Assembly: GCA_903875215.1 (NCBI GenBank)
Contig: CAIQVH010000016.1
Span: forward strand, 372,001-436,000
DNA length: 64,000 bases
Source of the DNA: an uncultured Anaerolineae bacterium
GTDB taxonomy: Bacteria > Chloroflexota > Anaerolineae > Anaerolineales > Villigracilaceae
Reading direction: 5' to 3'
Part shown: piece by piece, positions 49,670 to 64,000 of the stretch
Numbering within the stretch: position 1 is the first letter of the stretch
How the letters are laid out: each line of letters begins with the position of its first letter
The notes under the pieces: generated by a model
What the model was told of the DNA's origin: nothing
What the model saw: only the letters and a program-made list of their open reading frames with translations
The model's database searches: none
Made by a program: the position numbers and the translations under genes

Positions 49670-51190
49670 ATGGAACCAGTTCTCGACTTGCGAGGCATCA
49701 CCAAAAGATTTCCTGGTGTTCTGGCCAATGACCACATCTCCATCGACTTGATGCAGGGTGAAATCCACGCCTTGCTGGGAGAAAATGGCGCTGGAAAAAC
49801 CACCCTGATGAATATCCTCTATGGGTTATACAAACCCGATGAAGGGGATATTTTCGTTAAAGGTCAAAAATTAACCATCGACACTCCCAACGACGCCATC
49901 AAGGCCGGGGTTGGGATGGTGCACCAGCATTTTATGCTCATCCCGGTCTTTACCGTCACCGAAAATATCATGCTGGGTGACGAATATCTCAAGCCGGGCG
50001 GCTTTTTGGATCGGAAAAAGGCGGCAGCCAGAATCCGTGAGATTTCGCAGCAGTACAACTTGCAGGTTGAGCCGGATGCGTACGTGAAGGATCTGCCAGT
50101 AGGCATTCAGCAGCGGGTGGAAATTATCAAGCTTTTATTCCGCAATGCCGATATCCTAATTTTGGATGAACCGACGGCGGTGCTCACGCCGCAGGAAGTG
50201 GATGAACTCTTCAATATCATGAAAAAGCTGGTCGAGCAGGGCAAATCCATCATCCTGATCACGCACAAACTGCGCGAGGTGATGGAATTCGCCGACCGCA
50301 CTACCGTCATCCGCGGCGGAAAAGTGATCGGCACCGCCAAACAGAGCGAGACAAATCAATTTGAGCTGGCGGCGATGATGGTCGGGCGGCAAATCGAGTT
50401 GAATATCGATAAAAAAACAGCGGAAACCAAAGATGTGGTGCTGGATGTGAAAAACCTGAAGGTGCTGGATACGCACCATCAGGTGGCTGTCGCCAACGTC
50501 TCTTTTGAAGTCCGGGCCGGGGAAGTGTTGGGAATTGCCGGGGTGCAGGGTAACGGTCAGACGGAACTGGTACGCGCTTTGACCGGGTTGACGCATCCGG
50601 TGGAGGGCAAGATCCACCTGCTGGAACGGGATATCACCCACGCGCCGGTCAAACAAATCACCGAATTGGGCACGGCCCACATTCCCGAAGATCGTCAAAA
50701 AGACGGGCTGGTGATGACTTATTCCATCGAAGACAATTTGATTTTGAATACCTGGTATAAAGCGCCGTTCACTCGAAATGTCATCCTGCAGCGCAAAGTA
50801 ATTCTCGATAACGCGCAGCAGCTGGTGTCCAATTTTGACATTCGCACGCCCAGCGCCCTGACGGCAACCAGCCACCTTTCGGGTGGCAATCAGCAAAAGG
50901 TGATCGTGGCGCGCGAGTTCTCCCGCCCGATCAAACTTCTGGTTGCCTCGCAGCCAACCCGCGGCCTGGATGTCGGTTCGATCGAATATATTCACAGGCG
51001 CATCATCGAAAAACGTGATGACGGCTGCGCCGTGCTGCTGGTCTCGACGGAGTTGGATGAAATCATGCAGCTTTCGGACCGGGTCGCGGTCATGTATCGC
51101 GGACAGATTCTGGCCATCGTCGACCCCAAAACTACCTCCCGCGAAGAAATCGGTTTGCTGATGGCCGGTGTTGTGCCGGAAGCTCACTGA
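49670..51190 (+). CDS. Nucleoside/sugar-type ABC transporter, double ATP-binding protein
   Basis: A 506-residue protein with two ABC domains. The first has a full Walker A (GENGAGKTT) and Walker B (LILDEPTAVLTPQE). The second has degenerate motifs (GVQGNGQTE without the Lys; ASQPTRGLDVGS without Asp-Glu), as usual for the NupO/RbsA class, but retains LSGGNQQKVIVARE. The partner permeases are of the BMP-linked nucleoside importer type. GAGG precedes the ATG. The lipoprotein that captures substrate is not in the window. Confidence 0.92.
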   Translation: MEPVLDLRGITKRFPGVLANDHISIDLMQGEIHALLGENGAGKTTLMNILYGLYKPDEGDIFVKGQKLTIDTPNDAIKAGVGMVHQHFMLIPVFTVTENIMLGDEYLKPGGFLDRKKAAARIREISQQYNLQVEPDAYVKDLPVGIQQRVEIIKLLFRNADILILDEPTAVLTPQEVDELFNIMKKLVEQGKSIILITHKLREVMEFADRTTVIRGGKVIGTAKQSETNQFELAAMMVGRQIELNIDKKTAETKDVVLDVKNLKVLDTHHQVAVANVSFEVRAGEVLGIAGVQGNGQTELVRALTGLTHPVEGKIHLLERDITHAPVKQITELGTAHIPEDRQKDGLVMTYSIEDNLILNTWYKAPFTRNVILQRKVILDNAQQLVSNFDIRTPSALTATSHLSGGNQQKVIVAREFSRPIKLLVASQPTRGLDVGSIEYIHRRIIEKRDDGCAVLLVSTELDEIMQLSDRVAVMYRGQILAIVDPKTTSREEIGLLMAGVVPEAH

Positions 51191-51217
51191 GCCTGTTGAG
51201 AAGATCAGGGTATTCCT

Positions 51218-52462
51218 ATGACAAAAACAGAAGCAACACAACAACCCAAAGATGCTTTTTCCATATTCCTGGATGAACTCAGGCGTAATTCGCTGACGGT
51301 GACCATCCTGGCAATCGTCACCGGTCTGCTGGCGGGCGGGCTGATTGCGGCAGTCACCACTGAAGGCGTTTACGCGGCTTTTCGCGTTTCCTTTTTCGGC
51401 GGGCTCAAGGCCGGCTTGATGGTTTTCTGGGATACCTATCGGGCCTTGTTTACCGGTTCGGTCGGCGTTCCAGCGGATATTTTCAACGCGCTGCGCTCCG
51501 GGGATGGGGCTGCCATCAACAAGGCTTTCACCCCCTTCTTTGAGTCGCTCTTACAGGCCACGCCCTATATTTTCGCGGGATTGGCCGTGGCGCTCGGTTT
51601 TCGCGTCGGCTTGTTCAACATCGGCGCGGAGGGGCAAATCTTCGTCGGCGCGCTGGGCACGGTTTGGGTGGCAACCTCCTTAAAGGGCTTGCCGACCATC
51701 ATCCACGTGCCGCTGGCTTTATTGGGCGGCGCCATCACCGGCGGAATCTGGGGCATGATCCCCGGCTGGCTGAAGGCCAAGACCGGGGCGCATGAAGTCA
51801 TCAACACGATTATGATGAACTATATTGCCTTCCGCCTGAGCGAATATCTGCTGAACGGCATTCTGCGCGACCCACACAAAAGCACCCCGATCAGCGCGCC
51901 GATTGAAAAAAGCGCCTGGCTGCCGCGTTTTTTCGATGATCCCAACCGTTTCCACGCCGGTTTCTTCATCGCCCTGCTGATGGCTTTCCTGGTGTACTGG
52001 CTGTTATTCAAAACCAGTTGGGGCTTTGAACTGCGCACCGTGGGCTTGAACCCGAATGCGGCGCGCTATGCCGGGATGAACATCGTCCGCAGCACTGTCA
52101 TCACCATGTTCCTTTCGGGCGCGCTGGCCGGAATGGCCGGGGCCAATGAAGTTTTGGGCGTCAACCACAACCTGGCGGTCGCGTTTTCATCCGGCTATGG
52201 CTTTGACAGCATCGCCCTGGCGCTGTTGGGCAACAGTCATCCGCTGGGTGTAGTGCTGGCGGCGCTGTTGTTTGGCTTCCTGCGCAATGGAGCCATTCAA
52301 ATGCAGCTGACGGCGGGCATCCCGATTGATATCATCTCCGTTTTACAGGCGCTGATCCTGGCCTTTATCGCAGCTCCGGCCATCATCCGCACCATGTATC
52401 ACCTGAAAGAACCCAAAGTCACCGAACCGACCCTGGTCGCGGCCAAGCCGGAAGGGAAGTAA
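51218..52462 (+). CDS. ABC transporter permease, nucleoside type, subunit 1
   Basis: A 414-residue membrane protein. A cytoplasmic N-terminus precedes about ten membrane segments. The segment ALGFRVGLFNIGAEGQIFVGALG and the later GFELRTVGLNPNAARYAGMN are typical of BMP-associated nucleoside permeases (NupP/YufP-like). It starts 27 bases after the ATPase and is followed 3 bases later by the second permease. Confidence 0.92.
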   Translation: MTKTEATQQPKDAFSIFLDELRRNSLTVTILAIVTGLLAGGLIAAVTTEGVYAAFRVSFFGGLKAGLMVFWDTYRALFTGSVGVPADIFNALRSGDGAAINKAFTPFFESLLQATPYIFAGLAVALGFRVGLFNIGAEGQIFVGALGTVWVATSLKGLPTIIHVPLALLGGAITGGIWGMIPGWLKAKTGAHEVINTIMMNYIAFRLSEYLLNGILRDPHKSTPISAPIEKSAWLPRFFDDPNRFHAGFFIALLMAFLVYWLLFKTSWGFELRTVGLNPNAARYAGMNIVRSTVITMFLSGALAGMAGANEVLGVNHNLAVAFSSGYGFDSIALALLGNSHPLGVVLAALLFGFLRNGAIQMQLTAGIPIDIISVLQALILAFIAAPAIIRTMYHLKEPKVTEPTLVAAKPEGK

Positions 52463-52465
52463 GCC

Positions 52466-53734
52466 ATGACACAGAGCAATGCAACCGTTCTCAAATCTTA
52501 CGAATATATCTCGCCGACCCGCCGCACGGTGATGGGTATCATTTTCCTGGCCCTGGCGCTGGGAATTTGGGCCTTATTCTCTCGCACCGTTACCCCTGAG
52601 ATGCAAACCACCTTCTCTCTTTATCCGGGTGGTTCATCGGTGGTCGTACCCGATTGGGTTTTCCCGACCCAGCCGATGCTGAATGTGCTCGCTTTTGCGG
52701 GCGCGCTGCTGGGCGCATACCAACTGGCGCGCGGCTTTGGGCGACAGACCAACACCATTCTGGGAGTCGTCTCAGCCCTGTTCATTTTCGGCTTTCTGGC
52801 CTGGGGCGCTTCCGGCTCAAGCCTGAATCTGGCTGGATTGCTCAAGGTGGCCGTGGTGCGCGCCGTGCCGCTGGTGCTGGGAGCTTTCTCGGGTATTCTG
52901 TGCGAGCGTTCGGGCGTCTTCAATATTGCCATCGAAGGCATGATGCTGACCGCTGCTTTTTGCGCCGCCCTGTTTGGCAGCCTGGTCAATATCTGGTTCG
53001 GGTTGTTCATCGCCATCCTGACGGGTGGAGTGATGGCGCTGGCACTGGCCGTGCTGGCAATCAAATACAAGGTTGACCAGATCATTGCCGGGACGGTGAT
53101 CAACATCTTCGCCACTGGCATCACCTCGTTCCTTTCGGCCAAGTTTCTGCAAAGATATGGGGATTTGAATGATTCCGGGCGTTTTGGCACCTGGGATGTG
53201 CCGGTGTTGTCTAAAATCCCTTTTATCGGGCCGGTTTTCTTCAGCCATAACCTGTTCATCTATGCCATGTTCATCTTTGTCATCCTGCTGACAGTGGCGC
53301 TTTTTTATACCCAGTGGGGTTTGCGCACGCGTGCTGTGGGCGAACATCCCAAGGCGGCGGATACGCTCGGCATCAATGTCAACCGGACGCGCTATATCTC
53401 GGTGGTGCTGGGAGGGATGATGGCCGGATTCGCGGGCGCTTACTTTGTGCTCGGCTCGGTCGGGCGCTTTGACGAGGTGATGACCGCCGGGCGCGGCTTT
53501 GTGGGTCTGGCTGCGATGATCTTCGGCAACTGGAACCCGATCGGCTCGCTTGGCGCGGGGATGTTATTTGGTTTCGCCGATTCGCTGGCCTCCAAGCTCG
53601 CCATCCTGAAAGTGCCGATTCCCAACAAGTTCCTGGAGATGGGCCCTTACATCATCACGATGATCGTCCTGGCCGGTGTCGTCGGGCGTGGACAGCCGCC
53701 TGCCGCGGGCGGCAAGCCCTACGAGAAAGAATAA
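52466..53734 (+). CDS. ABC transporter permease, nucleoside type, subunit 2
   Basis: A 422-residue membrane protein with about ten membrane segments. LCERSGVFNIAIEGMMLTAAF and GLRTRAVGEHPKAADTLGINV are the family signatures (NupQ/YufQ-like). The GxFNI(A/G)xEG motif matches the one in subunit 1, as expected for paralogous heterodimer partners. Last gene of the importer operon; a strong hairpin follows. Confidence 0.92.
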   Translation: MTQSNATVLKSYEYISPTRRTVMGIIFLALALGIWALFSRTVTPEMQTTFSLYPGGSSVVVPDWVFPTQPMLNVLAFAGALLGAYQLARGFGRQTNTILGVVSALFIFGFLAWGASGSSLNLAGLLKVAVVRAVPLVLGAFSGILCERSGVFNIAIEGMMLTAAFCAALFGSLVNIWFGLFIAILTGGVMALALAVLAIKYKVDQIIAGTVINIFATGITSFLSAKFLQRYGDLNDSGRFGTWDVPVLSKIPFIGPVFFSHNLFIYAMFIFVILLTVALFYTQWGLRTRAVGEHPKAADTLGINVNRTRYISVVLGGMMAGFAGAYFVLGSVGRFDEVMTAGRGFVGLAAMIFGNWNPIGSLGAGMLFGFADSLASKLAILKVPIPNKFLEMGPYIITMIVLAGVVGRGQPPAAGGKPYEKE

Positions 53735-53750
53735 AGGTCACAGACAAAAA

Positions 53751-53786
53751 AACGGGGCTGTCCTGTTGAAGCAGGGCAGCCCCGTT
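53751..53786. terminator. Bidirectional terminator
   Basis: AACGGGGCTG and CAGCCCCGTT with an extended inner CCTG/CAGG pairing form a stem of about 15 bp. On the minus strand it is followed by a T-rich run, so it probably also ends the Thr/Pro-linker gene. Confidence 0.88.
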
Positions 53787-53801
53787 ACTGTTAAACGCGG
53801 G

Positions 53802-54578
53802 TTACTTCTGGGTAAAGCGGATATAGATCAGGTTTTTGGCACAGTCGCTGTAGGTTGTCAGATAGATTTTATCCGAAAGTGGGGCATTCGATTGGTCGAA
53901 CATTTGCACCCAGAGTGTATTCTTCGAGGCAACTGGCGGAATGCCCAGGTCAAATTCGAAGCCGCTCTGGCCGTAGGTGCTGGCAATTCCAGTCATGGAA
54001 GTGCTGTCGAAGGTCTTCCCCGGCACGTTGCCGCCCAATTTGACAATGTACCCGAGCATCGGATTCTTTTTGTTGTCAATGGCCTGGCCGGCGACATACA
54101 GGGTATTGCAGCTGGAATCGGCGCGGTAGGTGGTGCTGTCCACGGCGGTGACGGTCACGCCGTAGGGCAGCCCGGTCGGTTTGGGGGTGCGCGTGGGTGG
54201 AATGACTGCAGTGGCGGAAGCGTTCGGGGTGGCGGTCGCCAGGCTGAAGGGGGTGTAGGTCGGCTCGAGGGTGTAAGTCGGGCGGGGTGTGGAGGTTTCC
54301 GTCGGCAGGAGGGTCGGTTCGGGCGTCCAGGTCGGCGGGAAAACGAGCGGTGTCCAGGTCGGCGTGATGGTCGGCGGGATGGGCGTATTGGGTTTGAACG
54401 GGTTGATCGCGCTGTAGGGGTTGGCATAGACGGTGTAAATCACCCAGCAACTGCACAACATCATCAGCAGTACCACAACGGTCAGGATGTTCCACACCAT
54501 GTCGCGGCTGGAACCTTTTTTCTTACCCTGCGCCGATTTGCGCGGTTTGTTGTTGAGAAAATCATCGTAATTACTCAT
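53802..54578 (-). CDS. Membrane-anchored protein with Thr/Pro-rich linker, unknown function
   Basis: A 258-residue protein. A basic cytoplasmic N-terminus (1-26) precedes one membrane helix (about 29-49, NILTVVVLLMMLCSCWVIYTV). A Thr/Pro-rich stalk covers about 62-135 (PTPTWTP- and PTYTLEP-like repeats). The outer globular domain (about 138-258) contains two Cys (SSCNTLYVAGQ and YSDCAKNLIYI) that could form a disulfide. No enzyme motifs. Such stalked proteins are common in Anaerolineae. GAGGAG lies before the ATG. Confidence 0.75.
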   Translation of the reverse strand: MSNYDDFLNNKPRKSAQGKKKGSSRDMVWNILTVVVLLMMLCSCWVIYTVYANPYSAINPFKPNTPIPPTITPTWTPLVFPPTWTPEPTLLPTETSTPRPTYTLEPTYTPFSLATATPNASATAVIPPTRTPKPTGLPYGVTVTAVDSTTYRADSSCNTLYVAGQAIDNKKNPMLGYIVKLGGNVPGKTFDSTSMTGIASTYGQSGFEFDLGIPPVASKNTLWVQMFDQSNAPLSDKIYLTTYSDCAKNLIYIRFTQK

Positions 54579-54602
54579 CCGTGCATCTCCTCGGAGGCGA
54601 TG

Positions 54603-55496
54603 TTAATTGAGATTTGAGACAATCGTACTTTGTTGCCGGCGCTGGGCCAGCCACTCTTTCAGGGCGCGGGTTTGTAGCGTCTGGAGCGCATCCGGGCTGA
54701 GCGGCCGGTCGGGTTGGGTTTCCAGCAATTTGAGCAGGTGATATCCCACCTGGCTGGGAATGATGGCACTGGTGGCTCCGGCCTGCAGCGAGAAAGCGGC
54801 TTCTTCAACCGCTGTTTCGGCCAGGTAGTTGCGTGGAAACCAGCCGATATCGCCGCCGGTGACCGGGTCAACTTGGGCCGCCAGGGCATCGAAATCAGCC
54901 CCGGCCTGCAATTGATCGGCATATTTTTGTGCAACTTCCTCATTATAGAGCAAAATCTGGCGGATGTGCACCTGCGGGGCTGAAAGGGGAACTGCTGCGA
55001 TGATCTTGTCGCGCATCCAGGCCGCCGCGCTGGCGCGCCGGAGCGCGGCTTTGAAATCCTCCTGGTTGTAGCCATGCTCCTGCTGCCAGGCAGAAAGCTG
55101 CTCCGCGCCGCCAACCTGCGCTGCCAGGGCCTCGATGCGGGCCTGTAAGGCAGCATCATCCAGCGTAAAACCTGCTTCTGCCGCGCCCTGGGCCAATAAA
55201 ATCTGGGCCACCAGATCATCAAAGACCACGCGCTGCGCCTCCGCTTCGGGTGCGGGGGTGGCCTGGGCCGCCTGGTAACGCGTCACTTCAGCCGAAAATT
55301 CAGCCAGCGGAATGGTCTCCCCGTTCACAGTCCCGGCGGAGGGAACAGGCGTCGCTGTGGGCGGGGCCGGGGTGACGGTCAACGTGGGAGTGGGGCTGGG
55401 CAGGTTTCCAATTCCAATTCCCCCGGAGGAGCAGGACGCCAACAGGAGCATTAAAAACCAAAAGAGCGGGCAACGGAATGATTTCAAAGCGGACAT
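54603..55496 (-). CDS. SurA/PpiC-type peptidyl-prolyl isomerase lipoprotein
   Basis: A 297-residue exported lipoprotein. Signal and lipobox LLLASC at about 17-22, then a short Thr/Pro linker, an N-terminal helical chaperone-like region, and a parvulin domain (VHIRQILLYNEE...AGADFDALAAQVD...GDIGWFPRNYL...PSQVGYHLLKLLE). It should fold secreted proteins. I chose the ATG at 55496: TATAAT lies 7 bases upstream, predicting a leaderless mRNA. The longer frame runs into the neighbouring gene. Confidence 0.88.
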   Translation of the reverse strand: MSALKSFRCPLFWFLMLLLASCSSGGIGIGNLPSPTPTLTVTPAPPTATPVPSAGTVNGETIPLAEFSAEVTRYQAAQATPAPEAEAQRVVFDDLVAQILLAQGAAEAGFTLDDAALQARIEALAAQVGGAEQLSAWQQEHGYNQEDFKAALRRASAAAWMRDKIIAAVPLSAPQVHIRQILLYNEEVAQKYADQLQAGADFDALAAQVDPVTGGDIGWFPRNYLAETAVEEAAFSLQAGATSAIIPSQVGYHLLKLLETQPDRPLSPDALQTLQTRALKEWLAQRRQQSTIVSNLN

Positions 55497-55503
55497 TCTG
55501 TCG

Positions 55504-55509
55504 ATTATA
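55504..55509 (-). promoter_or_regulatory. -10 box of the PpiC lipoprotein gene, leaderless start
   Basis: TATAAT on the minus strand, 7 bases before the ATG. -35 not clear. Confidence 0.65.
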
Positions 55510-55557
55510 CCGGATGTGAGTTGACCAGACAGCTCACTAAACAGAACTGACAACCGG

Positions 55558-56994
55558 TCAATGCGCCGGCAGGACGAGATAAATCTCAATTTTGCCGTAA
55601 TGCGTGACCAGCGTGGCGCCGGGCAGGTCGAGCAGCGCCGGGTCCAGCGCGGCGTCGCGGACAATGCTGACGAGCGTCTGGTCTTTCTGGTTGCTGGCCA
55701 GCAGCAGCCAGTAGCGTTCCCCATCGGCGCGCGGCTGCCAGGCGGTGGCGGGCACGCCCAGCCGGGTCAGGTAATACCAGACCTGGCTGTTGTTGGGATA
55801 TCCAACCAGCACCACATCCTGCTCGCGCAGATTTTCACTCAGGAACCGGGCAGAGGCCTGCGGGTTGCCGACCTTCACCCAGGCCTGCGGCAGCCCCGCC
55901 AGGCTGATTGCCAGCTGGAGACTGAGACCCGCCACCGCCAGCCCGAGCAGCAGATGCGCGCCAGAGAACTTCCCCACCCGCACCTTTCTGGCCGTTTCGA
56001 CGAGCCCGGCTGCAGCCCACAGCAGGCATGGAGCCAGCAGCCAAGACCAGAAACGGTCAAAGGCTTCGGGGCGGCGCGCCAGCACCAGCACAGCGACCCA
56101 AACCGCCAGCGTCAGCGCCAGCGGCCAGCGGGTGAGTTGAATCCGGCGGTGCAGAATCAGCGCCAGGAAAAAGCCCAGGACGAGCAGCACCGTCAGCGCG
56201 GCAGGCAGGTTCGCAGTCCAGGAGGCCCAGGTATCCTTCAGCCGGGTGGTCAGCACCCAGTCAAAATATTTTCCCGCCTCCACCGGCTGGACGAAGCCAT
56301 TGGCAATGATTTTCCGCCAGCCCGAAACGCGCAAGGCCGGCAGGTAGAAAGCCACCGTCAGCGCGCCTGCCAGCGCCCCCGAGCCCAGCCAGCGCAGAAA
56401 GAAGGAGCGCCGCCGATGGCCTTCCAGCGCCAGCCAGAGATACAGCCCGCCCGCCGGGTAGAGCATCAGAGGCAGGGTAAAGAAGCCGAGCGCCGTGCCA
56501 AGTGCCAGCAGCGCCCAATTGCGCCAGCGCTCGGTTTGGAGCAGTTCGTGACCGAGAAAGAAAATCAACAGGGTGAAGCCGGCCAGCATGCTGTAACCGC
56601 GCGCTTCGGTTGAAAAACGGATTAACGCGGGCAGGGCTGCTGTCAGCGCGGCGGTCAGTAGACCGGTCTGGGGGCTGTATATCCGCCGGCCCAGCAGGTA
56701 ACTGCCCGGAATCAACGCCAGCCCGGCCAGCAAGGCTGGCAGGCGCAAAGCCCAGGCCTGGTTCCCCAGCGCGGAGGTGCTGAAAAACACCAGGACGCTG
56801 TGCAGAATATGATTGTTGGGCAGGGAGTAATCGCTCAGCGCCCCCCACAGTGAATGCGAAGCGAACCCAATGTAGGTATAGGCTTCGTCATACGTCACCG
56901 GGCCGTTCAGGGCCGGCAGGCGCAGCAGCAAGCCCGCCAGCACAAAAAACGCCAGCAATCCGCGTTGGGGTGTCCACCAGGAGGCCTTGGTCAT
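55558..56994 (-). CDS. GT39-like (ArnT/PMT-fold) membrane glycosyltransferase
   Basis: A 478-residue polytopic protein with about eleven membrane segments and a soluble C-terminal domain. Near the N-terminus, PALNGPVTYDEAYTYIGFAS holds the acidic DE pair expected in the first outer loop of GT-C glycosyltransferases, and ARGYSMLAGFTLL follows. These enzymes transfer sugars from polyprenyl-phosphate donors. I chose ATG 56994; the longer frame overlaps the M42 gene. Substrates unknown. Confidence 0.78.
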   Translation of the reverse strand: MTKASWWTPQRGLLAFFVLAGLLLRLPALNGPVTYDEAYTYIGFASHSLWGALSDYSLPNNHILHSVLVFFSTSALGNQAWALRLPALLAGLALIPGSYLLGRRIYSPQTGLLTAALTAALPALIRFSTEARGYSMLAGFTLLIFFLGHELLQTERWRNWALLALGTALGFFTLPLMLYPAGGLYLWLALEGHRRRSFFLRWLGSGALAGALTVAFYLPALRVSGWRKIIANGFVQPVEAGKYFDWVLTTRLKDTWASWTANLPAALTVLLVLGFFLALILHRRIQLTRWPLALTLAVWVAVLVLARRPEAFDRFWSWLLAPCLLWAAAGLVETARKVRVGKFSGAHLLLGLAVAGLSLQLAISLAGLPQAWVKVGNPQASARFLSENLREQDVVLVGYPNNSQVWYYLTRLGVPATAWQPRADGERYWLLLASNQKDQTLVSIVRDAALDPALLDLPGATLVTHYGKIEIYLVLPAH

Positions 56995-57007
56995 GCCATC
57001 CGGCCGC

Positions 57008-58057
57008 TCAACTGAGCAGATACGCCACGATCCACTGCGTGGTGGCTTCGAGCGCCAGGGTATGGGTGCGCTCGTAATTGTGTGAAGCATCCACCCCCGG
57101 GCCGATCAACGCCACGGCCACATCGCCGCCCGCGCGCCAGAAAGCCTCGCCATCTGAACCATAATACGGGTAAATATCCACCCGGTACTCGATCGCATGC
57201 GCCGCGGCCAGGGCGCGCAGTTTCTGGCTGAAACCATGATGATACGGCCCGCCGCTATCTTTGACGCACAACGTCACGCTGTACTCATCCGAGGTCTGCC
57301 CGGCGCCGATGGCCGCCATATCCACCGTCAACAACTCCTGCACTTCGGGCGGAATGCCGGCCGCCGCGCCGTGTCCGACCTCCTCATAGTTGCTGAAATG
57401 GAAATACGTCGTCTGCGCCGGCTGCAAGCCCGCCTGCTGCAAGGCCCGGATGGCCGCCACCAGCGTTGCCGCGCAGGCCTTGTCATCCAGAAAACGCGAG
57501 CGCACAAAGCCCTCGGTCAGCTCTACGCGCGGGTCAAAGGCCACAAAATCACCGATCTGGATGCCAAGCGCGCGCGTCTCCTCGGCCGAAGTGGTGCGCG
57601 CATCCAGCCGGACTTCCATATTGTCCTCGCTGCGGCGGGTCTCGTTGACGCGAGCGCCATGTACATGACTGGAAGCATCCTCAAACAGATACGACCCGCG
57701 CACCTTTGTCCCGTTATTGAGCAGCACCCAGCAGCCCTCGGTTTCCACTCCGTTGAGCAGCAGACCGCCGATTCTGGTCAGTTTCAGGCGCCCGTTGGGT
57801 TTGATCTCTTTTACCATGGCGCCGAGCGTATCGACATGCGCCGTCAGCGCGCGCGGCGCCTCATCGCTGCGGCCCTGCCAGCGCGCCACCAGCGCGCCCT
57901 TGCGCGTGCGAGCAAGCGTCAGCCCGGAAAATTGCCGCAGGGTGGCCTCCACAAACTCCAGCGCAGAGTCGGTGCAGCCGGTTGGCGAGGCAATGTTCAG
58001 GAGTTGAACGAGAAAGTTGAGCAGGAAAGGGGTGTCAATCGCAGGCAGGCTGGTCAT
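57008..58057 (-). CDS. M42-family metallopeptidase
   Basis: A 349-residue di-metal aminopeptidase of the M42 (glutamyl aminopeptidase/tetrahedral TET) type. Metal and catalytic motifs are TAHVDTLGAM, RFLDDKAC, NYEEVGHG (catalytic Glu) and, near the C-terminus, GPGVDASHNYER. It acts in the cytoplasm on peptides. The start overlaps the stop of the thioesterase gene by 4 bases. Confidence 0.93.
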   Translation of the reverse strand: MTSLPAIDTPFLLNFLVQLLNIASPTGCTDSALEFVEATLRQFSGLTLARTRKGALVARWQGRSDEAPRALTAHVDTLGAMVKEIKPNGRLKLTRIGGLLLNGVETEGCWVLLNNGTKVRGSYLFEDASSHVHGARVNETRRSEDNMEVRLDARTTSAEETRALGIQIGDFVAFDPRVELTEGFVRSRFLDDKACAATLVAAIRALQQAGLQPAQTTYFHFSNYEEVGHGAAAGIPPEVQELLTVDMAAIGAGQTSDEYSVTLCVKDSGGPYHHGFSQKLRALAAAHAIEYRVDIYPYYGSDGEAFWRAGGDVAVALIGPGVDASHNYERTHTLALEATTQWIVAYLLS

Positions 58058-58488
58058 GGAAGGTCCTTATTAAAGAATTTTTCCTGGCGTTCAATCGCGG
58101 CGCGCCAGGTGGCGGGGATGGGCACGGTGGCCTGGGTGCTGTAATCATACGTGACGATCACCGTCGCACCTGTGGCGTACACTGTGCCATTGGCCTCGGC
58201 CATTTCATACTCCATCGTCAGAGACTTGTTGCCCAGGCGGCTGACGCGCACGCCCACGCGCGGAGCGCTGCTGAAATAGACTGGCGCCTTGAACGTCACC
58301 GTCGCCTCTGCCAGGATGATGCCAATTTCGAGAAAAGACTGTTCTTTGGAAAACAATCCCAGGTTGATCAGGTAATTCACACGCGCCTGCTCAAAGTACG
58401 TCAAAAAACGCGCATTGTTGACATGGCCCTGCGGGTCAAGATCCGAGTAACGAATTTCGATGGGGTGATGGAAGTGAAAGGCAGGCAT
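58054..58488 (-). CDS. Hotdog-fold acyl-CoA thioesterase
   Basis: A 144-residue 4-hydroxybenzoyl-CoA-thioesterase-like protein. IRYSDLDPQGHVNNARFLTYFEQAR (11-35) is the family active-site segment with catalytic Asp. Acyl substrate not known. TATAAT lies 6 bases before the ATG, so the operon thioesterase-M42-GT39 mRNA is probably leaderless. Confidence 0.9.
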   Translation of the reverse strand: MPAFHFHHPIEIRYSDLDPQGHVNNARFLTYFEQARVNYLINLGLFSKEQSFLEIGIILAEATVTFKAPVYFSSAPRVGVRVSRLGNKSLTMEYEMAEANGTVYATGATVIVTYDYSTQATVPIPATWRAAIERQEKFFNKDLP

Positions 58489-58494
58489 GCGCCG

Positions 58495-58500
58495 ATTATA
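58495..58500 (-). promoter_or_regulatory. -10 box of the thioesterase operon, leaderless start
   Basis: TATAAT on the minus strand, 6 bases before the ATG. It directly follows the terminator of the upstream crp-like gene. Confidence 0.7.
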
Positions 58501-58514
58501 AAACGGGAATCAAT

Positions 58515-58540
58515 AAAAAACAGCGGGGTTTGCCCCGCTG
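58515..58540 (-). terminator. Terminator of the Crp/Fnr-type gene
   Basis: CAGCGGGG, four-base loop, CCCCGCTG, followed on the minus strand by TTTTTTATT. Confidence 0.9.
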
Positions 58541-58564
58541 CTTGTTCAGCCAGCTCCATCCGCC

Positions 58565-59266
58565 TTACTTGCAGAATTTCATCAGGCCTTCGCGCTGTAA
58601 AACTGTAATCTTTCCGGCATCATTAATGGAAATCAACCCCTGCTCGCGGAAAGCCACCATCACCTGGTTAACGCGCCGGCGCGAGGCGCCCACCAGGTCG
58701 GCAATATCACTTTGCGTGATGTTGATGGAAAGGGTGACTGGTTTTTTCTCCTCGCTCGTGACGTGATTTCCTGCAAAGACCAGCAACTGGCGCGCCACCC
58801 GCCCGTAGGTATCCATCGTAGCCAGAGCCTGAATCAGCTCGTTGTTGCGGCGCAGGCGCATGCTCAGGATGGTCACCAAATTGCGGCTAACGATGGGGAA
58901 ATTATCCAACATCTGGTGAAAACTACTTTTGTCCATCCACAACATCAAGGTATCTTCCAGTGCGACGGCGCTGGCAGAATGCCCGGCGCTGTCTAGCAGG
59001 CTGATCTCTCCTAATATTTCACCTGCACCCATCATGGACAATACCACCGGCTTTTTATCGGCATGGTCAATGACGATCTTGACGACACCCTGCAAAATGA
59101 TATAAACCGCTTCCCCGGGCTGTTCCGCCACCAGCACAGCAACCCCTGCCGGGAAAATCCGCTGGTACATGCGCCTCGCAACCCATTCCAACCCGGCCCC
59201 ATCCAGCCCGCGAAAAAGCGGCAACCTCACAAGGGTGTTTAGGAATTCAGGCGTTAATTCGATCAT
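58565..59266 (-). CDS. Crp/Fnr-family transcriptional regulator
   Basis: A 233-residue protein. The cyclic-nucleotide-binding-type beta-roll covers about 10-125 (PGEAVYIILQGVVKIVI, GAGEILGEISLLD), then the dimer helix, then the winged HTH near 180-215 (TQSDIADLVGASRRRVNQVMVAF). There is no N-terminal Cys set, so it is not an iron-sulfur FNR. The effector pocket lacks a clear cAMP-type RxS signature. Recognition helix SRRRVNQ differs from CRP SRETVGR. It is the natural candidate for the CRP/FNR-like sites in this window. Confidence 0.92.
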   Translation of the reverse strand: MIELTPEFLNTLVRLPLFRGLDGAGLEWVARRMYQRIFPAGVAVLVAEQPGEAVYIILQGVVKIVIDHADKKPVVLSMMGAGEILGEISLLDSAGHSASAVALEDTLMLWMDKSSFHQMLDNFPIVSRNLVTILSMRLRRNNELIQALATMDTYGRVARQLLVFAGNHVTSEEKKPVTLSINITQSDIADLVGASRRRVNQVMVAFREQGLISINDAGKITVLQREGLMKFCK

Positions 59267-59341
59267 GAGTTTACCTCACCTCGATGACTAATTCGGCGAT
59301 TACAACCATTGTACGGCAAAAAAAACATTAATCACAAAAAT

Positions 59342-59372
59342 CGCAGAAATGGGATTTATTCCCATTCCTGCG
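59342..59372. repeat. Hairpin upstream of the crp-like promoter
   Basis: CGCAGAAATGGGA and TCCCATTCCTGCG pair with one mismatch. On the minus strand it is followed by ATTTTTG, so it could terminate antisense entry or shield the promoter. Confidence 0.55.
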
Positions 59373-59478
59373 AATAAACATGTCGGACCCCCGGCACCCC
59401 CCCAAAAAAAAAATTTCTTTTGTATTGATACATTATGACCTAAATCTTGCAATTCTGTAACGAAGTAAATGGCATCCG

Positions 59479-59498
59479 GTGTGAGAAATATTTCACAC
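59479..59498. promoter_or_regulatory. Operator-like palindrome near the crp-like gene
   Basis: GTGTGA and TCACAC form 6-bp arms around GAAATATT. The half-sites match the CRP/FNR half-site, but the spacing is 8 rather than 6. It is centred about 80 bp before the predicted start of the Cas4-like operon. Confidence 0.4.
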
Positions 59499-59571
59499 AT
59501 GGTGGCTGCCGGGTGCTGGTTTTCGCAAAACATATTCTTTCAGGCCATTATCGGTTAGAATAAATGTGCTA

Positions 59572-59814
59572 ATGAGACCTATCAAAGCCTCCGAAATTGG
59601 ATCGTACCTGTACTGTCGCCGGGCCTGGTGGTACCGCCTGCGCGGGCAGACCTCCCTGAATCAGCCCGAAATGGCCGCCGGAACCGAACTGCACCGTCAG
59701 CATGGCCGTAAAGTGCTGGTCGCCGGGATGCAGCGCGCCCTGGCATTCTTTGCCCTGCTGGCCGCATGCATGATGCTGACCGCCTTCGGCCTGATTTACT
59801 TCCTGGGGAATTAA
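59572..59814 (+). CDS. N-terminal half of a split Cas4/RecB-like nuclease, with C-terminal membrane helix
   Basis: An 80-residue protein. Residues 7-45 (ASEIGSYLYCRRAWWYRLRG, then AAGTELHRQHG) match the N-terminal part of Cas4/Dna2-like PD-(D/E)XK nucleases: Cys15 is the first iron-sulfur ligand and His41 the active-site His. From residue 56 it becomes a membrane helix (ALAFFALLAACMMLTAFGLIYFL) and stops. The following gene starts 1 base after the stop in another frame and supplies the rest of the nuclease. TAGAAT lies 10 bases before the ATG. Confidence 0.75.
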   Translation: MRPIKASEIGSYLYCRRAWWYRLRGQTSLNQPEMAAGTELHRQHGRKVLVAGMQRALAFFALLAACMMLTAFGLIYFLGN

Positions 59815-59815
59815 A

Positions 59816-60331
59816 ATGTTCCTCTTTTACGCCGCCCTCTTCAGCCTGCTCCTGGCCCTGATCCTCTTCTGGCAATCCGGGCGATTGCGTCGCGCCGCAG
59901 GACTGCCCGGCGGGCGCGTCATCTACACCGACACACGCTCCTGGAGCGAAGTCGAAAAACCACTCTACGACCCCGCTCTCAGCCTGATCGGAAAACCCGA
60001 TTACCTGATCGAACAAAATGGACGCATCATCCCCGTCGAAGTTAAAAGCGGCCCCGCGCCTCGCGCGCCCTACGATTCACACATCTACCAGCTCGCCGCC
60101 TACTGCCTGCTGGTGGAAAAAACCATGGGCAAACGCCCGCCGTATGGCGTGCTGCACTACACCAACCGCGACTTCGCCATCGACTACACCCCGGCTCTCG
60201 AAAGCGCCCTGCTCGACCTGCTGGCAGAAATCCGCCGCGATGAACGCCGCGCCGACGTGCCCCGCTCGCACTCCAGCCCAGCCCGCTGCGCCCGCTGCGG
60301 CTTCCGCGAAATCTGCGAACAAAAAGCCTGA
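59816..60331 (+). CDS. C-terminal half of a split Cas4/RecB-like nuclease, with N-terminal membrane helix
   Basis: A 171-residue protein. A membrane helix (about 1-19) is followed by the PD-(D/E)XK core: IGKPDYLIE (Asp62), IIPVEVKSG (Glu75, Lys77), YQLAAYCLLVE (Gln92, Tyr96). The last part SPARCARCGFREIC supplies Cys158, 161 and 167, the three C-terminal iron-sulfur ligands of Cas4-type enzymes. All catalytic residues appear intact. No CRISPR array or other cas gene is in the window. Neighbouring recN suggests a DNA repair setting, but the membrane anchors are unexpected. Confidence 0.8.
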   Translation: MFLFYAALFSLLLALILFWQSGRLRRAAGLPGGRVIYTDTRSWSEVEKPLYDPALSLIGKPDYLIEQNGRIIPVEVKSGPAPRAPYDSHIYQLAAYCLLVEKTMGKRPPYGVLHYTNRDFAIDYTPALESALLDLLAEIRRDERRADVPRSHSSPARCARCGFREICEQKA

Positions 60332-60363
60332 GCCCATACCCGCTCAACAGCCACGCTCTGGAA

Positions 60364-60369
60364 TATAAT
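60364..60369 (+). promoter_or_regulatory. -10 box of the NAD kinase gene, leaderless start
   Basis: TATAAT, 6 bases before the ATG. -35 not clear. Confidence 0.7.
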
Positions 60370-60375
60370 AACAAC

Positions 60376-61242
60376 ATGGTTTCAAACCCAGCCCCCACCC
60401 GGATCGTAATCGTCGGACATCCCAAGCTGGCAGATTCCCTTAACGAAGCCGCCGCCATCGCCAAAAGCCTGGCAAAAAAAGGCCTCGAAGCAGCCCACGG
60501 TTCGCTCTATGATGAAAAATTGCGCAAACGCGTCCACACCGGTGAATTCGACCTGTTGATCGCCGTGGGCGGTGACGGTACCATGTTGCGTGCCGGGCAT
60601 CTTTGCGCCCCGCACCACCTGCCCATCCTCGGCGTCAACAAAGGCCGGCTGGGATTCCTCTTTCAGGTTGACACCGGCGGCTGGCAAAAAATGCTCGACT
60701 TGCTGCTGGCCGGCGATTACTGGGTTGAAAACCGCATGATGCTGCGCGCCGAACACCTGCGCGCCGGAGAATCACTCGGACAATGGCAGGCGCTTAACGA
60801 TGTGGTCGCTGGACGCGGCCCCAACATGCGCCCCATTCACGTCAGCGCCAGCGTTGATGGTCAATACCTGACCAAATACATCGCGGATGGCCTGATCGCC
60901 TCCACCGCCACCGGCTCCACCGCCTACGCCCTGGCTTCCGGCGGCCCCATTCTGCCGCCCGAGTTGCGCAACATCCTGCTCATTCCCATCGCCCCGCACC
61001 TCTCCGTAGACCGGGCCGTCGTCCTCTCGGAAGGCGCCACCGTCCGCATGACCATCCTGAGCGACAACGCCATCCTGAGTATTGACGGCCAAACTCCAAT
61101 CGGTCTGGAAGAAAACGATCATGTCGAAGTCCACGCCGGAGAAAACACCGTCAAATTCATCCGCTTCGGCGACCCAGGCTACTTCTACCGCAACCTGACC
61201 GCCCACATGAACCAGAACACCACCATAGGACTGCCGCGATGA
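60376..61242 (+). CDS. nadK: NAD kinase
   Basis: A 288-residue enzyme making NADP from NAD with ATP. GGDGT (65-69), NKGRLGFLFQ and the nucleotide-contact STATGSTAYALASGGPILPP are canonical. Its stop overlaps the next start by 4 bases (ATGA), and recN follows, an order seen in many bacteria. Confidence 0.96.
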   Translation: MVSNPAPTRIVIVGHPKLADSLNEAAAIAKSLAKKGLEAAHGSLYDEKLRKRVHTGEFDLLIAVGGDGTMLRAGHLCAPHHLPILGVNKGRLGFLFQVDTGGWQKMLDLLLAGDYWVENRMMLRAEHLRAGESLGQWQALNDVVAGRGPNMRPIHVSASVDGQYLTKYIADGLIASTATGSTAYALASGGPILPPELRNILLIPIAPHLSVDRAVVLSEGATVRMTILSDNAILSIDGQTPIGLEENDHVEVHAGENTVKFIRFGDPGYFYRNLTAHMNQNTTIGLPR

Positions 61243-61763
61243 CCCAACTCACCCCCACCCATTGCGCCAACCACCCCACCATAGAAACCACCCTGCGCTG
61301 CAACCGCTGTGAGAAATACATCTGCGTCAAATGTGCCGTCAAAATCCCCACCGGCTACCGCTGCCGGGAATGTGTCCGAGGCCAGCTCAAAATCTTCGAT
61401 ACCGCCGAATGGTACGATTACCCGCTCGGCTTCCTGGTGGCAGCCATTCTCTCTGTCATCGCCAGCGTCCTCACCTCGTTAATCGGCATGATCGGGCTCT
61501 GGGGCCTGTTCATCCTCTTCGCTGCCGCACCCACCGCCGGCCTCATCATCTCCGAAGCCGTGCGCTTCATCACCCGCCGCCACCGCGCCAAAAACCTGTT
61601 TCTGACCATCGCCATCGGGGTCGCCCTCGGCGTCGTCCCGATGGTTGTCATCAGCCTGGTTGCCACCGACTTGTTCAGCCTGTTGTACCAGGGCGTATAC
61701 CTGTTCCTGGTGGTGCCCACCGTCTACACCCGCATGAGCGGCATTCAAATCTTCAAACAATAA
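61239..61763 (+). CDS. B-box-like zinc-finger membrane protein
   Basis: A 174-residue protein. Residues 9-45 contain a C/H-rich finger (CANHPTIETTLRCNRCEKYICVKC, then YRCREC) of the B-box type often found on bacterial membrane proteins. Four membrane segments follow. The function is unknown; a zinc-dependent sensor or scaffold is possible. Placed between nadK and recN, probably in one transcript. Confidence 0.75.
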   Translation: MTQLTPTHCANHPTIETTLRCNRCEKYICVKCAVKIPTGYRCRECVRGQLKIFDTAEWYDYPLGFLVAAILSVIASVLTSLIGMIGLWGLFILFAAAPTAGLIISEAVRFITRRHRAKNLFLTIAIGVALGVVPMVVISLVATDLFSLLYQGVYLFLVVPTVYTRMSGIQIFKQ

Positions 61764-61778
61764 AAACACCTCGCCACT

Positions 61779-63506
61779 ATGCTGACTGAACTACGCATCG
61801 AAAATTTTGCCATCATCGACCGGTTGGAGCTGGATTTCGGCCCCGGCCTGGTCATCTTTACCGGTGAAACCGGCGCGGGCAAATCCATCATCATGGATGC
61901 GCTCGAAATGCTGCTTGGCGGCCGGGCCGAGAACACCATCCTCCGCGCAGAAGCCGAGCGCGCCAGCGTGGAAGGCCTCTTCAAACTGACCGGTGCCACC
62001 CGCGAAACCGTCAACCAGATCCTCAAACGCGAAGACCTGCTCGACGACGAAAACTACGTCACCCTGGCGCGTGAAGTACGCCGCGAAGGTCGTTCCACCG
62101 CCCGCATCAACGGCCGCACCGTCAACGTGACCCTGCTGCGCGAAATTGGCGCCAGCCTGGTGGATATTCACGGCCAGACCGAACATCTCTCTCTGCTCGA
62201 TGTGCGCGCCCACCTCGGCCTGCTCGACCGTTACAGCGATGTGGAACCCCTGCTCGGCAGTTACCGTCAAACCTACTCTGCCCTGCAAACCCTGCGCCGC
62301 GACCTGGCCAGTCTGCGCGCCGCCCAGGCCGATTCCACTCGCCGCATCGAAATGCTCACCTTCCAGGTGGAAGAAATCGAATCGGCGCGGATCAAACCCG
62401 GCGAAGACGAAGAACTGCGCCAGGAACGCGACCGGCTGGCCAACGCCGAATCGTTGGCCGCCAATGCCCAGGAAGCCATCCTGCTGCTCGATGAAGGTTC
62501 GCCCGAAACCCCCGCCATCACCGACCAGCTCGGGCAGACCGTCGCCGCGCTGGCCTCATTGGCGCGCGTGGACGCCTCGCAAACCGAACTGGCCGCCCGC
62601 GCCGAAACCCTGCTCGAAAACCTGGCCGACATCGCCGCTGACCTGCGCAACTACCTCGAACGGATCGAATTCAACCCGCGCCGCCTCGAACAAGTCGAAG
62701 AACGCCTCGACCTGCTGCACCGCCTGATGCGAAAATATGGCGGCACGCTGGCTGCTGTCAGCGCCTTTGGCGCGCAAGCCCGCCAACAGCTGGAAACCAT
62801 CACCACCGCCGCCGAAAAAATTGACGAACTGGAAGCCCGCGAAGCCATCCTGCTCAACGAACTGGCCGCCCGCGCCGAAAAACTCTCAGAAAAACGCCAC
62901 AAAGCTGCCGAAAAACTCGCGCGCGGCATTGAAACCGAGCTGAACGACCTGAAAATGGCCGCGGCCCGCTTTGCCGTGGATTTTCAGACCAGGGCAGATC
63001 CGGCTGGTTTGCCGGTGGCAGGCTCCCGCGTGGCGTTCGATGCCAGCGGATTCGACCGGGTGGAATTTCTCGTCGCGCCCAATCCGGGCGAAGGGTTGAA
63101 ACCGCTCGCCAAAATCGCCTCGGGGGGCGAAACCTCGCGCCTGATGCTGGCGCTCAAGAACGTCCTGGCCAAAGCCGACCAGGTGCCCAGCCTGGTCTTT
63201 GACGAAATTGATCAGGGCATTGGTGGGCGCATCGGCGGCGTGGTCGGGCACAAGCTCTGGCAGCTGGGGCGCCGGCACCAGGTGCTGGTCATCACCCACC
63301 TGCCGCAGCTGGCTGCCTTTGGCGACCAGCACTTCCAGGTCCAGAAGGTGATCAAGAACGGCCGCACCTCCACCGAAGTGCGCCACATGGCAGGCGATCA
63401 GCGCCTGCTGGAACTGGCCGGGATGCTTGGCGAAGTCAGCGAGGGCACGCTGCGCTCAGCCTCCGACCTGTTGCAATCGGCACAGGCCTTAAGTACCCCC
63501 CCTTAA
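61779..63506 (+). CDS. recN: DNA repair protein RecN
   Basis: A 575-residue SMC-like ATPase in double-strand-break repair. Walker A GETGAGKS is at 29-36, with the N-terminal LRIENFAIIDRLELDFGPG. A coiled-coil middle (about 155-370) follows, then the signature IASGGETSRLMLALKNVL and Walker B PSLVFDEIDQGIGG. Full family length. It follows the zinc-finger gene by 15 bases. Confidence 0.97.
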   Translation: MLTELRIENFAIIDRLELDFGPGLVIFTGETGAGKSIIMDALEMLLGGRAENTILRAEAERASVEGLFKLTGATRETVNQILKREDLLDDENYVTLAREVRREGRSTARINGRTVNVTLLREIGASLVDIHGQTEHLSLLDVRAHLGLLDRYSDVEPLLGSYRQTYSALQTLRRDLASLRAAQADSTRRIEMLTFQVEEIESARIKPGEDEELRQERDRLANAESLAANAQEAILLLDEGSPETPAITDQLGQTVAALASLARVDASQTELAARAETLLENLADIAADLRNYLERIEFNPRRLEQVEERLDLLHRLMRKYGGTLAAVSAFGAQARQQLETITTAAEKIDELEAREAILLNELAARAEKLSEKRHKAAEKLARGIETELNDLKMAAARFAVDFQTRADPAGLPVAGSRVAFDASGFDRVEFLVAPNPGEGLKPLAKIASGGETSRLMLALKNVLAKADQVPSLVFDEIDQGIGGRIGGVVGHKLWQLGRRHQVLVITHLPQLAAFGDQHFQVQKVIKNGRTSTEVRHMAGDQRLLELAGMLGEVSEGTLRSASDLLQSAQALSTPP

Positions 63507-63513
63507 AACGCCT

Positions 63514-63549
63514 AAACCCCCGCTTTGGATGTGTAAAGCGGGGGTTTTT
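63514..63549 (+). terminator. Terminator of the nadK-recN operon
   Basis: AAACCCCCGCTTT and AAAGCGGGGGTTT form a 13-bp stem followed by T5. Confidence 0.92.
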
Positions 63550-63565
63550 GTGTAAAAATAGCGAC

Positions 63566-64000
63566 ATGCTCCGCATTCACTTGTTTGGTGCCCCAACCGT
63601 CTATAATGAACAAGGCGACCCGCTGCTGATTAAGCGCCGCCTGACGCGCGGACTGCTCTATTACCTGGCCGCCCAGGGCCGCCCGCTGACGCGCGACCAC
63701 CTGGTGGACCGCTTCTGGCCCAACATCCCCCTCGACCGAGCCCGAGCCGCCCTGCGCGACAGCCTGGGCAAACTGCGCGAAGCCCTGCCCGAAGCGGATA
63801 AAGATCTACTGCAAGCCACGCGCGACAGTGTGACGCTCGATTTTCGACGGGTGACGGTTGACCTGCTCGAAATCCAGGCCCTGCTCGAGAAAATTAACAC
63901 CAGCGTTTGGAAACTGCCCGATCTCCAGCCGCTGCCCGCCGAACATTATCGCCAGATGCTGCGCGTGATGCAGCTCTGGGATGGGCGCAACTTCCTGCCC
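63566..64000 (+). CDS. SARP/BTAD-type transcriptional activator, 3'-truncated by window edge
   Basis: The first 145 residues are visible and the frame is open to the last base. MLRIHLFGAPTVYNEQGDPL, then RRLTRGLLYYLAAQGRPLTRDHLVDRFWP, then RARAALRDSLGKLREAL is the winged-helix DNA-binding domain of the SARP/OmpR-like activators; the bacterial transcriptional activator (BTAD) region begins after it. Large members of this family carry NTPase and TPR domains downstream. The start lies 16 bases after the recN terminator with no clear ribosome site, so it may be leaderless. Confidence 0.85.
   Translation, partial: MLRIHLFGAPTVYNEQGDPLLIKRRLTRGLLYYLAAQGRPLTRDHLVDRFWPNIPLDRARAALRDSLGKLREALPEADKDLLQATRDSVTLDFRRVTVDLLEIQALLEKINTSVWKLPDLQPLPAEHYRQMLRVMQLWDGRNFLP

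Follow-up and report, generated by a model that had tools for sequence, protein, structure and literature searches.

Two adjacent genes in the window (the whole stretch of 64,000 nucleotides that was analyzed) probably encode the two subunits, A and B, of an integral-membrane, CRISPR-independent solo-Cas4; their assembly, iron-sulfur cluster, nuclease activity, and role are inferred. In the proposed architecture, each subunit would be anchored in the cytoplasmic membrane by one helix, and the two helices would lie side by side, resembling a hairpin without its loop. The cytoplasmic parts of A and B would meet below the helices and complete one Cas4 fold, with the first cysteine and the helix of the active-site histidine coming from A, and the remaining three cysteines and the D/E/K/Q site from B. 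Because A and B would supply different residues, cluster and active site would be incomplete in either subunit alone. The most likely activity of the complex would be to cut DNA where the membrane faces the cytoplasm, the target being, for instance, DNA that enters the cell or is broken.

Both genes and all of their features given here lie on the forward strand. Gene A (59572..59814) runs from an ATG at 59572 to a TAA stop at 59812-59814 and encodes 80 amino acids, comprising the N-terminal part of a Cas4 domain and a C-terminal membrane helix; a GTG at 59566 is an alternative in-frame start. Gene B (59816..60331), with an ATG at 59816 and its stop at 60329-60331, encodes 171 amino acids, beginning with a membrane helix that is followed by the remainder of the domain. 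At the junction (59812..59816), the TAA of A is separated from the start of B by one base (59815), and the reading frames differ, exactly as an earlier note on this DNA had claimed. The residues that the note had assigned to each protein were also found on re-reading. Gene A carries Cys15 (codon 59614..59616), the proposed first iron-sulfur ligand, and His41 (59692..59694), the proposed active-site histidine, which lies in a GxxxH motif. Gene B carries the PD-(D/E)XK residues (59999..60091), with the codons of D62, E75, K77, and Q92 starting at 59999, 60038, 60044, and 60089, and the motif C158-x2-C161-x5-C167 (60287..60316), the proposed other three ligands. A membrane helix had been placed at the break in both proteins, and a hydrophobic stretch is present at each site, at about residues 57-77 of A (59740..59802) and residues 1-19 of B (59816..59872). 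The charge pattern predicts that the N-terminal part of A is inside and its C-terminal tail outside, and that B has its N-terminus outside and its nuclease part inside.

These features are strongly conserved. In alignments of related loci drawn from the window's own class, C15, W19, G37, H41, and H44 are invariant in the 55 rows for A, and D62, E75, K77, Q92, Y96, H152, C158, C161, and C167, among others, are invariant in the 52 rows for B, which bears out the earlier statement that all ligands and catalytic residues are kept. A 19-residue segment with a mean hydropathy above 1.6 occurs in all 110 distinct A sequences and in 114 of 115 distinct B sequences. Lysine and arginine are distributed asymmetrically around both helices, with a mean of 3.4 in the 15 residues before the A helix and 0.27 in the 15 residues after it (n = 110), and a mean of 0.04 before the B helix and 3.5 in the 15 residues after it (n = 115). 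Since the positive charges flank the nuclease side of both helices, this side is predicted to face the cytoplasm, and A would end, and B begin, on the outer side of the membrane. Purifying selection acts on both genes: among 13 pairs, dN/dS is 0.03-0.26 for A (computable for 10) and 0.05-0.17 for B (computable for 12).

The two proteins together account for a Cas4 domain. On the 180 positions of the TIGR00372 model, A covers 2-45 and B covers 53-179, so that the pair tiles the model with 7 positions missing, and this gap falls where the helices are; the PADLOC models agree. By itself, B scores 77.4 bits and A 24.5 against a curated cut-off of 65. With PF01930, B scores 41.1 bits, above the cut-off of 22.7, and A scores 13.2, below it; gene B is the one PF01930 match in the whole genome. 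The Cas4 residue set is complete only over the pair, with H41 in A and D62, E75, K77, and Q92 in B, and the four cysteines of the family, which would bind the putative cluster, are likewise divided into one in A and three in B. The pair lies outside CRISPR-cas loci, as is characteristic of solo-Cas4 genes, and departs from the usual single-polypeptide form of solo-Cas4, a form that is not part of the family definition. We classify the pair as a new, probably two-subunit form of solo-Cas4 with predicted membrane anchors.

Predicted models of the artificially joined chains adopt a Cas4 fold. Folding relied mostly on unpaired alignments, and the chains were connected by a 1-residue linker for the window pair and by a linker of about 18 residues for a relative. 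The model of the window pair (mean pLDDT 83.8, pTM 0.77) contains a helical hairpin, and its best structural match is the Cas4 of 7mi5 (Z 15.7, 167 aligned residues, rmsd 5.3, over model residues 1-248); confidence is low at the cysteine-rich end and in one loop of A. The model of the relative (pLDDT 82.1, pTM 0.70) also contains a helical hairpin and matches the Cas4 of 7mi4 best (Z 16.1, 142 aligned, rmsd 3.6). In a Foldseek search with the window pair model, the first matches were Cas4s at an E value of 1.4e-5, the first three having query TM-scores of 0.36-0.48 and an rmsd near 8. Query TM-scores were modest overall, at 0.30 for 4r5q and 0.36-0.51 for the other Cas4 chains with E < 0.001. 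It is important to bear in mind that joining the chains forces their proximity, and the models therefore support the composite fold rather than the assembly of A with B.

With only one base and a change of frame between the genes of the window, the break could be put down to faulty sequencing, or to a frameshift that recently disrupted a single ordinary Cas4-like gene. The earlier note had named orthologues that uniformly encode one uninterrupted frame as the finding that would speak for such an error, and relatives gathered by a genome-contig scan and by whole-genome searches are not of that kind. In a uniform re-analysis of all loci, with B duplicates removed by sequence, A and B occupy separate frames in 168 of the 194 distinct B loci and a single frame in 4. 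The other 22, which have no A within the stretch examined, are uninformative on splitting. Another count of 125 loci with both halves, in which duplicates of one place are included, contained no one-frame case. Gene-sized stretches separate the halves in many relatives, the halves lie 2.8 Mb apart in one genome, and a helix sits at the break on both halves. On these grounds, error or recent frameshift was rejected as an explanation, and we give it practically no credence. The distribution of reading frames instead indicates that the split appears to be old and widespread in Chloroflexi.

The spacing of the halves was recorded for the 80 best of 104 relatives in the genome-contig scan, the titles of which name Chloroflexi, Anaerolineae, or genera that we take to be members of these groups. 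The genes overlap in 7 of these loci and are separated by 0-30 bases in 21, by 31-300 bases in 16, and by more than 300 bases in 31; 5 loci have no A. A gene that we label HEAT-like lies between A and B in 31 of the same best 80 of 104 loci, and the longest open frame in the large gaps listed measures 155-281 codons. One such locus (L037) encodes a HEAT-like protein of 210 amino acids at its positions 2334-2966, between A and B.

A related explanation would retain two genes and have them yield a single polypeptide, through read-through of the stop or a programmed frameshift. In some relatives, the genes do overlap by 1 to 10 bases or lie only a few bases apart, and a single chain is evidently tolerated in three natural fusions. 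These are single-chain versions with a helical hairpin, of the type that the earlier note had suggested looking for (L189/L280 in genome G218, L279 in G435, and L276 in G439). In these assembled sequences, all from the class of genome G400 that is considered below, a single frame runs through A and B, and both helices are present along with a short linker; three genomes of the same genus as G218 and G435 (G311, G436, and G437) have A and B split. The stop codon of A among the relatives is TAA, TAG, or TGA, and the frame relation and the spacing vary as well; the gap exceeds 300 bases in 31 of the best 80 of 104 loci, and other genomes carry the halves far apart or on separate contigs. Because stop, frame, and gap all vary, and gene-sized inserts occur, no common signal could serve all loci. 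Read-through or programmed frameshifting was rejected as a general cause on this basis, and we hold it to be highly improbable for the pair. A fourth one-frame case, L240 in genome G107, is a single chain that has no membrane helix and has lost E75; in the tree described below, it groups with a split-type row from the window's class (bootstrap 92, SH-aLRT 25).

Whether A and B are partners was judged from their co-occurrence in the genomes of the class. Among 199 genomes sampled from the class, B was matched in 147 (at an E value of 0.001) and A in 137. Ten of the 147 genomes, where B is matched only weakly and the best E is above 1e-10, were left aside in the co-occurrence count. Both genes are then found in 135 genomes, neither in 60, and one without the other in 4, of which 2 have A and 2 have B (Fisher's test with kinship ignored, p = 7e-46). 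The two genomes with A only, G044 and G166, are 82 and 83% complete. Where both are present, the alignment ends are at most 300 bases apart in 60 genomes, 0.3-3 kb apart in 31, and 5.5 kb apart in 1; in the remaining genomes, the two are 2.8 Mb apart on a single contig (1 genome, G010), on opposite strands of one contig (1), or on different contigs (41), some of which may be assembly breaks. A and B thus stay paired in genomes even where their chromosomal adjacency has been lost.

The same data bear on the suggestion that B is the nuclease by itself, accompanied by a membrane protein, A, that is either unrelated to it or regulates it. B does pass the Cas4 cut-off by itself, and the 22 of 194 B loci that have no A in the stretch examined would fit such independence. 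Set against this are the match of A to the missing N-terminal part of the Cas4 model, including its cysteine and histidine, and the scarcity of genomes with B only: of the 137 genomes of the class in which B is strongly matched, just 2 have no A match. In one of these (G043), the contig ends 0.3 kb from B, and the other (G107) encodes the single-chain form. We regard a nuclease consisting only of B as very unlikely and favor the two-subunit enzyme.

Beyond the class, a sample of 251 genomes from the phylum yielded B-profile matches in 98 (E value of 0.001, ordinary Cas4s included) and A matches in 67. Both genes retain their nuclease residues and cysteines at all 16 of the loci L191-L206, which come from other families. 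Some further loci depart from this pattern; in L173, for example, D62 is replaced by Glu. A tree of 30 membrane-type proteins, including one fusion and the helix-less single chain, and 20 other Cas4s of the phylum separates the two sets with a branch support of 100/97. The tree is unrooted, and a midpoint root draws four membrane-type rows (L172-L175) beside the single-chain Cas4s, so that one origin of the membrane type is the simplest reading only. The 20 other Cas4s, hand-picked from weaker profile matches, are all single-chain proteins, as judged by a script pattern for 16 and by eye for 4; in 19, the domain has no strong hydrophobic segment, and L302 has one at 2.03.

Loss of the active-site residues can be followed in another class, that of genome G400, in which 37 of 47 genomes have a match at an E value of 0.001 and 32 have a strong match. 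In the 30 loci with both halves (2 of 32 loci, which have no A, are left out of this comparison), D/E/K/Q of B and GxxxH of A are both intact in 16 and both lost in 12, and the remaining two are discordant, with B intact and the histidine of A lost in G273, and the Glu of B lost and A intact in G443 (Fisher's test with kinship ignored, p = 2e-6). Loss was scored when at least one of D/E/K/Q was absent from B and, for A, when the GxxxH motif was gone; in G218, one of the 12 loci with both lost, the glycine of GxxxH is missing and the histidine letters remain. Expressed per half, at least one of D/E/K/Q is absent from B in 13 of the 30 loci, and the GxxxH motif is lost in 13, in 12 of which the nuclease residues of B are lost as well. 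The cysteines behave differently: the three of B are retained in all 32 loci, and that of A in all 30 with both halves. What stays constant in the sequences of this class is thus the set of cysteines rather than the nuclease residues. The two discordant loci speak against strict coupling, and independent events are few: mapped on the tree, each half shows six changes, which include three independent pairs on well-supported branches, and a sign test on these was not significant. Joint decay of the nuclease residues together with constant cysteines is the pattern expected of one shared active site and one shared cluster. Given the losses in 13 of 30 loci, that of E75 in L240, and the change of D62 to Glu in L173, nuclease activity is not universally kept.

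Two B copies outside this comparison appear to be decaying: L171, a second copy in G409, has an in-frame stop, and L176 in G413 has lost two of its three cysteines, with no A found.

The losses are consistent with a different emphasis, in which A and B form a composite iron-sulfur membrane protein with a kept function in sensing, DNA binding, or scaffolding, and nuclease activity is secondary and often lost. The class of G400, with D/E/K/Q incomplete in 13 of 30 loci and the cysteines kept throughout (32 of 32 for B and 30 of 30 for A), argues for such a function, and there is a precedent in a Cas4-derived virus nucleocapsid protein without nuclease function, as reported in PMC4625639 and PMC5704561. 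In the window's class and in all 16 of the loci L191-L206, on the other hand, the nuclease residues are kept, which would be hard to explain without catalysis in these lineages. We therefore consider a primarily noncatalytic protein unlikely for the pair and retain the reading of A and B as subunits of a nuclease. In a broader scenario, Chloroflexi would hold a distinct, ancestral membrane Cas4 branch, the cluster of which is built across two membrane proteins. Its conserved job would be that of an iron-sulfur device that contacts DNA at the membrane and might, for instance, check DNA that enters the cell or is held at the membrane. In most lineages the output of this device would be cutting, which one class would have given up repeatedly. 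We put this scenario forward as possible but doubtful.

The pair shows no sign of a link to CRISPR. The earlier note had seen no CRISPR locus nearby, and this is upheld for positions 50000-64000, where none of the direct-repeat families listed (20 of 27) is regularly spaced in the manner of an array. The cas1/cas2 adaptation module that defines a CRISPR-associated Cas4 does not accompany the pair, and a whole-genome profile search returned no Cas1 match in the window's genome. Within the class, Cas1 is matched in 85 of 135 genomes with the pair (50 are without) versus 35 of 64 without it. The pair and Cas1 show no significant association (p = 0.28), and a CRISPR link was rejected for this reason.

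Downstream of B lie a NAD kinase gene (60376..61242, forward strand), a neighbor that is not part of the proposed enzyme, and a zinc-finger-like gene with hydrophobic segments (61239-61763), for which a B-box match fell below the cut-off; in the best 80 of 104 relatives, they are found downstream of B in 75 and 74 loci, respectively. The zinc-finger-like membrane gene sits between the NAD kinase gene and a further neighbor (61779..63506, forward strand), which we take to be a RecN-type gene from its sequence and position. This order of B, NAD kinase, zinc-finger-like membrane gene, and RecN-type gene recurs in 71 of the 73 loci that have enough downstream sequence among the best 80 of 104. Among 40 more distant stretches, with flanks of about 1.5 kb, a NAD kinase was identified in one. 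In another lineage, a gene for an M50 (site-2 type) protease immediately precedes A and B in three genomes (L290, L291, and L292). No transposase or phage families were among the Pfam matches of 20 scanned proteins, one of which is B and four of which had no match. Because the neighboring genes differ between lineages, genomic context gives no role.

A link to competence is not discriminated either, since nearly all genomes sampled from the class (178 of 199) match the ComEC family (PF03772). We tentatively propose that the complex may guard or process DNA at the membrane; a role with incoming DNA is a guess that we hold at less than even odds, and we rate a role in repair as somewhat less likely.

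If the two-subunit model is right, it ties one branch of solo-Cas4 to the membrane and to a build in which cluster and active site would span a subunit border. Such a build makes function testable by co-expression and point mutants, and nature supplies the controls in the form of catalytically decayed versions, fusions, and a helix-less form. On the same condition, genome annotation may often pass over A, entered as a small hypothetical protein, and label B a truncated Cas4. Searches of the openly licensed literature in PubMed Central with "split Cas4", "membrane-bound Cas4", and like phrases found no such paper, and none of the titles among the matches listed there names a split or membrane-bound Cas4.

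Among known systems, the closest is solo-Cas4, the Cas4 nucleases found outside CRISPR loci, the job of which is described as uncharacterized in the 2017 Cas4 survey (PMC5704561). The survey's main text reports a monophyletic group of solo-Cas4 in many Chloroflexi, a group that may well include B, and states that short fragments or disrupted sequences were discarded (PMC5704561). The pair shares with solo-Cas4 the Cas4 residues and cysteines and the absence of a CRISPR context; it differs in being split over two genes and anchored in the membrane, and the words "split" and "transmembrane" are absent from the main text of the survey (PMC5704561).

The Cas4 of Cas4-Cas1-Cas2 complexes (PDB 7mi5/7mi4 and 8d3l) provides the best structural match to both joined-chain models, and 8d3l is also the best sequence-profile match (E 1.2e-5). 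That Cas4 is a single chain without membrane helices that acts with Cas1 and Cas2, whereas the pair does not track Cas1. For its role, a Cas4-like nuclease of Synechococcus elongatus, an organism described as having no CRISPR system, offers a model by analogy: it is reported to reduce the transfer or maintenance of RSF1010 replicons (PMC10653904), and the word "membrane" does not occur in the main text of that paper. More remote PD-(D/E)XK relatives, namely MGME1, Dna2, AdnA, RecE, and lambda exonuclease, match the window pair model with Z scores of 8.6-12.8; they have other architectures and resemble the model less closely than Cas4 does.
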